DNA from: Cerasicoccus sp. TK19100 | GTDB lineage: Bacteria; Verrucomicrobiota; Verrucomicrobiia; Opitutales; Cerasicoccaceae | Assembly (NCBI RefSeq): GCF_027257155.1 | Contig: NZ_JAPWDU010000004.1 | Coordinates: forward strand, 1-64,000 | Reading direction: 5' to 3' | DNA length: 64,000 bases | Shown: one piece after another, positions 29,454-32,613 of the stretch | Layout: every line of letters starts with the position of its first letter | Position numbering within the stretch: the first letter of the stretch is position 1 | Notes under the pieces: generated by a model | Seen by the model: the letters and a program-made list of their open reading frames with translations, nothing else | Told to the model about the DNA's origin: nothing | Database searches by the model: none | Position numbers and translations under genes: made by a program

Positions 29454-30776
29454 ATGAGCCACCCATCTCCCACTGAGCCGACCGACTACACCGGCACGCC
29501 CACCCGCAAGCAGACCATCTCGTGGGCGCTGTACGACTGGGCCAATACCGGCTATGCCATGGTGGTGCTCGCGCTCATCTTCCCGAAGATGTATAAGTCG
29601 TTTTTCAGCGCGCAGCTGAGCGACGGCGAGTCGACTTATTGGTTTGGCAAAACGGTGGCCATCGCGAGCCTGCTCGTTGCGGTGGCCGCGCCGTTTCTGG
29701 GGAGCATTGGTGAGCTGGGTGGCCTGCGCAAACGGCTGCTGCTCAGCTTTTGCAGCGTGGGGGTGCTCGCGACGGCGGCGTGTTTTTTCCTGGGCGAGGG
29801 CCAATACATGCTCGCCAGCGCGGTGTATATCGTCGGCACGGTGTGCTTTTATTGCAGTAACATTTTTTACGACTCGATGCTGGCAACGGTGTCCTCTCCC
29901 AAGAAGCGACACTTCGTCAGCGGACTCGGCTTTTCCTTTGGCTACGCGGCGGGATTCATCCTGCTGGTCGTCACGCTGCTGGTCACGAAGTCCTCGCTGC
30001 CGGCGAATTCGATGTTCATGATCGCGGCCGTGTGGTGGGCGGTGTTCACGATTCCGCTAGCGCTAAACATCCCGGGGCAGCCGAAGCCCGACCGCCCCCC
30101 GGTTTTTCAAATGGCCAAGGAGGGTGCCGCCGACACCTGGAAGACGTTTAAGGAGATCCTGGGCATCAAGCCGATCCTGCTCTTTCTGCTGGCCTACCTG
30201 TTCTACATCGACGGCGTGAACACCATCATCATGATGGCCTCGTTTTACGGGACCACGATTGGTTTCAGCGAAGCGCAGATCATCACGGCATTCTTCATCG
30301 TGCAGGTATTCGGTGTGCCGTGCGCGATTCTCTTTGGCTGGGCCGGGGGTAAAATTGGTCCGCGCAAAATGATGTTCATCGCGATCGTGCTCTACATGGG
30401 CGTCACCGCCTACGGGGCAAAGATCAGCGTGGAGCCGATCCATGTCTTCGGCGTCGAGATCTCGGAAATGTTCGTGCTGGCGGCCTTGATCGGCCTCGTC
30501 CAAGGCGGCATCCAGGCGCTGTCGCGGAGCTACTTCACCACGCTGATCCCGCCCGGGCGCGAGGTGTCGTTTTTCGGTTTTTACAGCATGATCGGCAAGA
30601 GCGCTGCCGTGATCGGCCCGTGGCTGATGGGCTTTGTCGCGGCCACCTTTAACAACCCCGAGGACCCCACCTACTCCACCCGCCTCGGCATGGGCTCGGT
30701 GGCGATCCTGTTCGTGATCGGCGGCTTTTTCCTGATCCTCGCCGGCCGCTACGAAAAGCGCAATGGCGGCCAGTAA
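29454..30776 (+). CDS. MFS transporter of the Atg22/UMF1 type
   Basis: A 440-residue, about 12-span membrane transporter. The start SWALYDWANTGYAMVVL is the signature of the Atg22/UMF1 MFS family (W-x-L-Y-D-W-A-N). A cytoplasmic loop rich in Lys and Pro lies between spans 6 and 7. In yeast this family exports amino acids from the vacuole; the bacterial substrate is unknown. A long 3' gap with palindromes follows it. Confidence 0.85.
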   Translation: MSHPSPTEPTDYTGTPTRKQTISWALYDWANTGYAMVVLALIFPKMYKSFFSAQLSDGESTYWFGKTVAIASLLVAVAAPFLGSIGELGGLRKRLLLSFCSVGVLATAACFFLGEGQYMLASAVYIVGTVCFYCSNIFYDSMLATVSSPKKRHFVSGLGFSFGYAAGFILLVVTLLVTKSSLPANSMFMIAAVWWAVFTIPLALNIPGQPKPDRPPVFQMAKEGAADTWKTFKEILGIKPILLFLLAYLFYIDGVNTIIMMASFYGTTIGFSEAQIITAFFIVQVFGVPCAILFGWAGGKIGPRKMMFIAIVLYMGVTAYGAKISVEPIHVFGVEISEMFVLAALIGLVQGGIQALSRSYFTTLIPPGREVSFFGFYSMIGKSAAVIGPWLMGFVAATFNNPEDPTYSTRLGMGSVAILFVIGGFFLILAGRYEKRNGGQ

Positions 30777-31248
30777 AACCGGGCTGCGACGAACGATATT
30801 TCGCACAAAAAACGCGACCAGGCATCACCCAATGCACACCAATTGCCCCGGCTTTGGTTCACTCCAACCAAGTCCTGTTTCTACCGCGATTACCCGGTGT
30901 GGTTCCCCTTTACGTCCATGGACGTAGCCCATCTACGTCCCGGGACGTAACCCTCCTACGTCCATGGACGTAAGACGTCTACGCCCCCGGGCGTAAGAAG
31001 CCAAAACCGCAGGCTTGCCAGTGAAACAACCGGTGCTCCGTGGCACCAACCACAGCGCTGATTCGCCTCAACTGAACACAGGAAAAGTCAGTAAACAGTA
31101 GGCTCCGGAGACCGCGAGGCCAGCCCGCTTCCCGCTCTTTCCGATCTTCCGGTTACAAGATATTCCGCATGGCTGCCTCGACACGAATCCGCAAACTATC
31201 TTCACATCAAGACTTGTGCTTTTGGCGAATCTGACTTACCTGCCTGCT
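30777..31248. other. Intergenic region with the palindrome array
   Basis: No gene is seen in these 472 bases. The main content is the four-palindrome array at 30911-30995, listed separately. A short GGTGC / GCACC hairpin lies in the right-hand part (about 31032-31047). The rest shows nothing recognisable. Confidence 0.5.
30911..30995. repeat. Four 16-bp palindromes in an exact 23-bp register
   Basis: Units start at 30911, 30934, 30957 and 30980. Sequences: TACGTCCATGGACGTA, TACGTCCCGGGACGTA, TACGTCCATGGACGTA and TACGCCCCCGGGCGTA. The first three are perfect palindromes; the fourth is perfect except at its centre. Spacers are 7 bases and differ in sequence. Unit 4 changes T to C in the left arm and A to G in the matching right-arm position, so pairing is kept. 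The array may be a protein-binding cluster or a structured nucleic-acid element. Confidence 0.8.
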
Positions 31249-31848
31249 ATGGATACATTAACTGCCATCAAGGCGCGCCGCGCCGTCAAACACTACGACC
31301 CCGAACACCGCTTGACCGAAGAGGAAGAGCGCACCCTGCTCGACGCGGCCATGCAGTCGCCGACCGCATTTAACATCCAGCATTGGCGCTTCGTTCTCGT
31401 GAAGGACCCCGCCCTGCGCCAGCAGATTCGCGAAGTCGCCTGGGATCAGGCCCAGGTCACCGACGCCTCGCTGCTCATCATCATGACGGCCAACAAGGAC
31501 GCGTGGAAGACGCCCGAGCGCTACTGGGCCGGTGCCCCGCAGCCCGTGCAAGACATCCTGGTCCCCGCCATCGACGGCTATTACAACGGCAAGGACCAAG
31601 TCCAGCGCGACGAATGCATGCGCAGCTGCGGCATGGCCGGCCAGACCATCATGCTCGCCGCCAAGGCCATGGGCTATGACACCTGCCCAATGGACGGCTT
31701 TGACTTCGACGCGGTCGCCAAGCTCATCAAGCTACCCGACGACCACATCATCAGCTTCATGATCGCCGTCGGCAAAGGCACCAAGGAAGCCTGGGCCAAA
31801 CCCGGCCAACTCGGCTACGAAGAAGTCGTCATCGAGGATACGTTCTAG
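31249..31848 (+). CDS. Nitroreductase family oxidoreductase
   Basis: A 199-residue FMN-dependent NAD(P)H oxidoreductase. Family features are the N-terminal IKARRAVKHYDP (FMN phosphate contact), QSPTAFNIQHWRFVLV (flavin ring contact) and G-Q-T-I-M-L-A-A-K-A-M-G. The natural substrate cannot be told; the family reduces nitro compounds, quinones or flavins. The start is the ATG at 31249 (MDTLTAIKARRAV). It is followed by a strong bidirectional terminator and lies downstream of the palindrome array. Confidence 0.88.
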   Translation: MDTLTAIKARRAVKHYDPEHRLTEEEERTLLDAAMQSPTAFNIQHWRFVLVKDPALRQQIREVAWDQAQVTDASLLIIMTANKDAWKTPERYWAGAPQPVQDILVPAIDGYYNGKDQVQRDECMRSCGMAGQTIMLAAKAMGYDTCPMDGFDFDAVAKLIKLPDDHIISFMIAVGKGTKEAWAKPGQLGYEEVVIEDTF

Positions 31849-31980: not shown

Positions 31981-32613
31981 CTATGCTTTGCGCATTCGAC
32001 GCCAAAACGTCACCCCAAAAATGCCAAGGCCAGCAATGATCGCATAAGTAGACGGCTCGGGAACGACCGCACTGGTGATGTCCACATTTCGGGAAACGCC
32101 ATCGGCAGCGGTTCCGATGCTTGCTCCGTCAAGCAACGATAGAGAAAAAGTTCCTGCATCGGTTGGGCTGGTGCTAATGGAAAAGGTGCCCGTAATGCTG
32201 TCGGTTGTGCCATTACCGATTTGCACTAGCTGATTTGGCACCGTTTGCGTGTCGAAGCCAAAAAACGAAAACAGGTTCAAACCATCAGGATACATTTCAA
32301 TCATGTCAGTCCCTACCCAAGTGGAGTAATCTACTGGGTTACCATTGTAGGTAGCGGACGGCGTCGTCGACAGTCCGGTAACGGTCAGTGCAAACCTGCC
32401 AGCGGCGAGGGTATTTGCCGGCGCGCCAGAATTATTGGTTAAAAATCTTGATAAGGAGGTATTTGAAGACGTGGCAGACCCCGACAGACTGAATGTGCCC
32501 GTAGTGCCGAAGTTCAGACTATCCTCATTAAAGTTAAGGCTCAGATTTAAGACACCGTAAGATGTAGCTAAGCTCGAAAGAAGCAGCGTGAACGTTGTAA
32601 GTAATATTTTCAT
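31981..32613 (-). CDS. PEP-CTERM sorting-signal protein
   Basis: A 210-residue exported protein. It has an N-terminal signal peptide (KILLTTFTLLLSSLATSYG). The C-terminus is a PEP-CTERM signal: VPEPSTYA, a hydrophobic helix (IIAGLGIFGVTFW), then a basic tail (RRMRKA). Exosortase cleaves this signal and transfers the protein to the envelope or matrix. The middle is Ser/Thr/Gly-rich with no domain that I recognise. No exosortase gene is in the window. Confidence 0.85.
   Translation of the reverse strand: MKILLTTFTLLLSSLATSYGVLNLSLNFNEDSLNFGTTGTFSLSGSATSSNTSLSRFLTNNSGAPANTLAAGRFALTVTGLSTTPSATYNGNPVDYSTWVGTDMIEMYPDGLNLFSFFGFDTQTVPNQLVQIGNGTTDSITGTFSISTSPTDAGTFSLSLLDGASIGTAADGVSRNVDITSAVVPEPSTYAIIAGLGIFGVTFWRRMRKA

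Follow-up and report, generated by a model that had tools for sequence, protein, structure and literature searches.

Intergenic palindromes associated with a protein gene have been described for the REP/BIME repeats and their RAYT transposases, in which the palindromes carry GTAG or CGTC tags (PMC3733652). The arrays described here share several properties with these repeats: they are intergenic palindromes that favour the 3′ sides of genes and convergent gene pairs, a single genome holds several of their sequence families, and the repeats that flank a protein gene are the same as those dispersed elsewhere. Unlike REP/BIME, however, the arrays consist of four core units at a fixed period of 22–24 bp, no clearly separate, unpaired GTAG or CGTC tag was seen, and the linked protein combines an HU-fold DNA-binding domain with an Ig-like domain instead of being a tyrosine transposase. 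GTAG can be read at one end of the asymmetric units (65 of 80), but its GTA belongs to the palindrome. No RAYT or other transposase was found among the neighbour genes inspected.

Plasmid iterons and operator arrays, as well as parS/ParB systems, likewise have direct arrays of ~22-bp sites beside the gene of the binding protein. In contrast to these, the arrays reported here are chromosomal, have many dispersed gene-less copies and show neither a replication or partition gene nor clustering at the origin or terminus. The linked proteins are, by Pfam and profile match, members of the HU-HIG clade (PF18291, PF14734; 4fmr) of the HU/IHF nucleoid proteins. A literature search that covered few subscription journals returned no paper on DUF4469. 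The HIG group was reportedly named in a survey of HU clades by Burroughs and colleagues (2017), and we know of no DNA repeats in that survey. Nor do we know of any report of HU-HIG genes that each have a 3′ palindrome array or a private DNA site. A HU-HIG gene with its putative cognate array looks like a system for which we found no description.

The window, that is the whole stretch of 64,000 nucleotides that was analysed, contains the locus with the following features:

29454..30776, plus strand: MFS transporter gene (ATG22-like), the upstream neighbour, which ends 134 bp ahead of the core
30845..30910, no strand: left arm, a mirror of the right arm with roughly three degenerate units of ~23 bp that keep the register of the core
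30911..30926, no strand: core palindrome unit 1, TACGTCCATGGACGTA
30934..30949, no strand: core palindrome unit 2, TACGTCCCGGGACGTA
30957..30972, no strand: core palindrome unit 3, TACGTCCATGGACGTA
30980..30995, no strand: core palindrome unit 4, TACGCCCCCGGGCGTA, in which a T/A pair has become C/G; 7 of 8 pairs match
30996..31066, no strand: right arm, roughly three degenerate units of ~23 bp with the consensus AGGACCA-ACAACCGNGGGGNTGT-tgatgca-ACACACGCCTGGATTC-...
31249..31848, plus strand: nitroreductase family gene, the downstream neighbour

The original prediction had described four palindromes of 16 bp that recur exactly every 23 bp, with 7-bp spacers of differing sequence, unit centres of AT, CG, AT and CC, and a paired T-to-C/A-to-G change that preserves the symmetry of unit 4. 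All of this was borne out: the units start at 30911, 30934, 30957 and 30980, the spacers are GCCCATC, ACCCTCC and AGACGTC, and unit 4 is symmetric at 7 of 8 pairs, the exception being its centre, since CC is not self-complementary. On a four-unit periodic-palindrome score (periods 17–40), the array reached 31 out of 32, compared with 22 elsewhere in the window and 21–24 in 40 dinucleotide shuffles. As had also been claimed, no coding frame runs through the array (no ORF of at least 80 aa covers it), and it is not a CRISPR array: its spacers measure 7 bp as opposed to ~25–40 bp, and no cas gene was recognised among the neighbours inspected. The four units are real, but the feature extends beyond them. 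On either side, about three degenerate units hold the ~23-bp register, which makes the four-unit core part of a larger element of ~225 bp (30845–31066, by profile match). The structure of the arms was derived from 40 aligned half-flanks, and between unrelated arrays similarity drops to background ~75–100 bp out from the core. Elsewhere in the window, a minus-strand ORF (31981–32613) has the C-terminal sequence VPEPSTYAIIAGLGIFGVTFWRRMRKA, a PEP-CTERM-like sorting tail.

A motif search of the organism's own genome (5.07 Mb, 13 contigs) found six arrays (C4:30911, C4:74314, C4:111101, C5:566880, C8:60883 and C10:21163). Together with four in Cerasicoccus frondis and ten in C. maritimus this gives 20 arrays; in every one the core has four units, no more and no fewer, and a period of exactly 23 bp. 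Motifs scattered singly and without a period were looked for and not found; the motif occurs in four-unit arrays only, except for a lone, weakly matching and chance-like site at C7:269972. The 23-bp period is common to all of these copies; their neighbours are functionally mixed as judged from simple ORF calls. At the loci inspected, the arrays are intergenic, mostly 3′ of genes and often between convergent genes. Within the genus, three out of four genomes have the family, the named matches being C. frondis and C. maritimus; the exact motif was absent from the rest of the 88 relatives searched, and the array arms, with up to 3 mismatches allowed, from the rest of 384 genomes of the class. A profile search with the whole element revealed related arrays in a second genus (G004), with four units, 15-bp palindromes and a 22-bp period; in units of one of these, TACCT..AGGTA arms take the place of TACGT..ACGTA. 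A match in Acidobacteria (L039) was rejected as unrelated, being a lone site that lies upstream of what is probably a regulator gene. The outer bases are asymmetric (C..A or inverted T..G) in 65 of the 80 units of the 20 TACGTCC arrays, so that every palindrome has an orientation; most often three units of an array point the same way and the remaining one is reversed.

Two of the six own-genome arrays are located directly 3′ of paralogous genes that encode an HU domain plus a DUF4469 Ig-like domain, with PF14734 matches at C4:111306 and C5:566538. The C5 protein scored above cut-off for PF18291, PF14848, PF00216 and PF14734, and the family has a profile match to the solved relative 4fmr_A and a weak match to the HU chain 5eka. 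Searching 16 genomes for PF14734 returned 21 genes in five genomes, namely the four with arrays of the window family and G007. All 21 genes have an array with a 22- or 23-bp period at most 420 bp 3′ of the stop codon (empirical p <= 0.007 per gene, against 3906 control windows); the set comes from few genomes and includes orthologues and recent duplicates, so that not all genes are independent. One of the G004 arrays overlaps, with its first palindrome, the stop codon of an HU-HIG gene. The upstream side of the PF14734 genes showed no such arrays, with one borderline value. By profile search, PF14734 is absent from the array-free congener G002, and no convincing array was found in the genomes without PF14734 (G002, G005, G006, G008, G009). 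The sequence of the linked arrays varies by gene lineage (for example GTTCCTCGGCGAGGAA, TTAGCACAG..CTGTGCTAA, CCCAAT..ATTGGG and CCACTGGTG).

In the protein tree, the TACG-type HU-HIG genes of both genera form sister groups (91/98). The 22/23-bp period changes three times across the 21 proteins, compared with about seven times in shuffles. Array sequence and period thereby appear to follow the HU-HIG protein tree, a signal that is weaker once orthologues are collapsed (95 of 1000 shuffles then match the observed result).

Dispersed arrays were also compared with the arrays of individual paralogues. The window array matches the linked arrays L137 and L141 (z 36 and 47), while values for the other linked arrays are ~0. 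Six further non-coding 23-bp arrays were found in ~380 kb of other own-genome stretches, from which some tens of such arrays per genome would be expected. The best match is linked array L128 for L064, L073 and L077, linked array L124 for L078 and L070a (the L128 and L124 families being partly alike), and linked array L132 for L118b. The orphan array L070b (CAGTTTGCCCATAGG type; L070:17240-17430, C5 ~157 kb) matches none of the five PF14734-linked own-genome arrays, and C. frondis has AACAACCG-type arrays for which its draft assembly holds no clearly matching PF14734 gene.

Several further arrangements were observed. At L118:2405-2610 on C6 of the own genome, an array of the CAACATACGCCCG type lies next to one of another family, the GTCGGCGAC type. 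A recent repeat family in C. frondis (L114-L117) combines AACAACCG..CGGTTGTT palindromes with AAAAGCCTTATGC units at 23 bp, with a common tail, ACCACGAAGGACAC, after three of the four copies. Also in C. frondis, a gene-linked array is followed by a series of small ORFs, all on the same strand, that resembles an integron and has attC-like repeats GCTACTCTTAGCGTT (L026:6250-11975), and the matching place in the own genome contains an integrase remnant (L008:6122-6613). A link to integrons was rejected, as this orthologous array (L008/L026) is the only one to abut an integron-like region.

Ten homologues from Bacteroidota, Spirochaetota and faecal contigs were inspected, drawn from a Treponema saccharophilum plasmid, Parabacteroides distasonis records labelled as plasmids, and the faecal contigs. 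Nine of them have a 23–24-bp palindrome array just past the stop codon, and that of L150 (CATGATAGCTATCATG, 16 bp plus 7 bp) has the geometry of the window array. In the tenth, L146, the array is ~490 bp away, behind a small ORF. Viral contigs scanned with HU-HIG queries yielded no confirmed relative. Nearly every HU-HIG gene examined, across three phyla, has its own 22–24-base array, and the whole therefore looks like a system of a protein and its cognate DNA site.

We consider it probable, judging from these sequence comparisons, that the window array is a solo (gene-less) cognate DNA-site array of a Cerasicoccus HU-HIG/DUF4469 protein and that it acts as DNA. The cognate assignment draws on the shared array family, the gene linkage, the lineage-specific array sequences and the constant 22–24 bp rhythm, on the matches between scattered own-genome arrays and individual linked arrays, and on the PF14734-free genomes without a convincing array and the conservation of cores above arms (see below). 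The gene-linked copies of the window array sit directly behind the two HU-HIG genes at C4 ~111 kb and C5 ~566 kb, whose proteins are predicted to prefer TACGTCCNNGGACGTA arrays. A dimer of the HU superfamily has two-fold symmetry, which suits a palindrome. Each palindrome would be bound by one such HU-type dimer, placing four adjacent dimers ~2.1 helical turns apart and almost in line along one face of the DNA. Dimers that pack cooperatively, one every ~23 bp, could then nucleate a local nucleoprotein patch, and the Ig-like domain may subsequently join neighbouring dimers or distant arrays. The likely outcome would be a sequence-addressed, HU-type structuring or bridging of DNA with an effect on the protein's own gene region. 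Both the binding of the array by the HU-HIG protein and its physiological role are what we infer from sequence. Against the cognate-site reading stands that HU proteins usually bind DNA with little sequence preference; the small and partly non-independent set of genes and genomes, the distant array of L146, the orphan L070b and the AACAACCG-type arrays of C. frondis also count against it. Among the roles first proposed for the palindromes, the best fit is a dimeric DNA-binding protein or a DNA-structuring site, and the poorest is an RNA element. The MFS transporter gene is a mere neighbour and lies outside the proposed system.

Selection on the array, as originally proposed, is upheld by a comparison of orthologous sites. 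Cores are 80–92% identical across species (mean 87%) and arms generally ~50–85%, with the arm less identical than the core in nearly every arm comparison. Paralogous copies inside one genome average ~76% identity. Taken together, this indicates that the positions are old and that the core is held by selection, not by homogenisation. Three congeners that keep the neighbour genes have no array at the site of the window array, and a 307-bp non-coding, array-bearing repeat of G004 occurs at two unrelated loci (L109:3828-4134 and L110:3629-3935) with 94% identity; elements have therefore been gained or lost over time. The empty site, the duplicated repeat, the dispersal of intergenic copies and the presence of HU-HIG plus array in several differing genomic contexts would also suit a small non-autonomous mobile element (MITE or REP-like), in which the HU-HIG gene and its array are mobile, solo arrays are remnants and HU-HIG is an architectural cofactor or passenger. 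We regard this as unlikely. The copies inspected showed neither terminal inverted repeats nor a target duplication or a transposase; the 307-bp copies do not end in clear inverted repeats, and the empty window site has no clean boundary. Moreover, within-genome copies are only ~76% identical, and old orthologous copies are constrained at the core, unlike decaying relics.

It is considerably less probable again that the array is an RNA element whose four small transcript hairpins act, for example, as a terminator, as a protein-binding RNA or to stabilise a 3′ UTR. In its favour, a palindrome is able to fold into a hairpin, both strands give clearly negative folding z-scores, and arrays mostly lie 3′ of genes. 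Palindrome positions 5 and 12 co-vary, as would be expected from hairpin pairing, with shared descent as another possible source. However, the symmetry includes the central bases, which an RNA hairpin would need for its loop, the covariation term of the consensus fold is almost nil (-0.01), and arm pairing within an element barely exceeds pairing between elements. An intrinsic terminator lies between gene and array in some PF14734 genes and behind the array in others, so that several linked arrays sit past the terminator of their gene. This placement on either side, like the pairing result, argues for a role at the DNA level. The window array itself has no credible Rfam match (gathering score) and no intrinsic terminator (hairpin plus T run).

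That the array is a local operator, through which a dimeric regulator controls the nitroreductase gene or the MFS gene, is highly improbable; its position between two co-directional genes would allow it, but the MFS–nitroreductase synteny is kept without the array in the three congeners, and other copies have unrelated neighbours, often between convergent genes. Partition, terminus or origin sites (parS- or matS-like) can be practically dismissed: parS is likewise a 16-bp palindrome, but the window array does not conform to a TGTTNCACGTGNAACA-like parS, canonical parS lies elsewhere, a dif-like site lies on C2, and array neighbours map all over the chromosome. Clustering at the terminus or origin, at which GC skew had hinted, was dropped after the dif location and neighbour mapping. 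The conserved dif-like site (G000:C2:261364 and G004:C1:3898704) and the canonical parS pair (G000:C3:449641, 449689) help to place the terminus and origin in draft assemblies.

DNA packaging that pays little heed to sequence has its archetype in the HU-type proteins. If the arrays are indeed cognate sites of HU-HIG proteins, they would offer ready-made putative binding sites for DUF4469 proteins, account for a group of repeats found between genes and imply that private DNA addresses have evolved for HU folds. More tentatively, and with somewhat less confidence than an even chance, the HU-HIG proteins of Bacteroidota, Verrucomicrobiota and Spirochaetota may be many privately addressed nucleoid proteins, each paralogue with its own array behind its gene, and in expanded lineages tens of scattered copies may tie distant loci into paralogue-specific contacts or patches.
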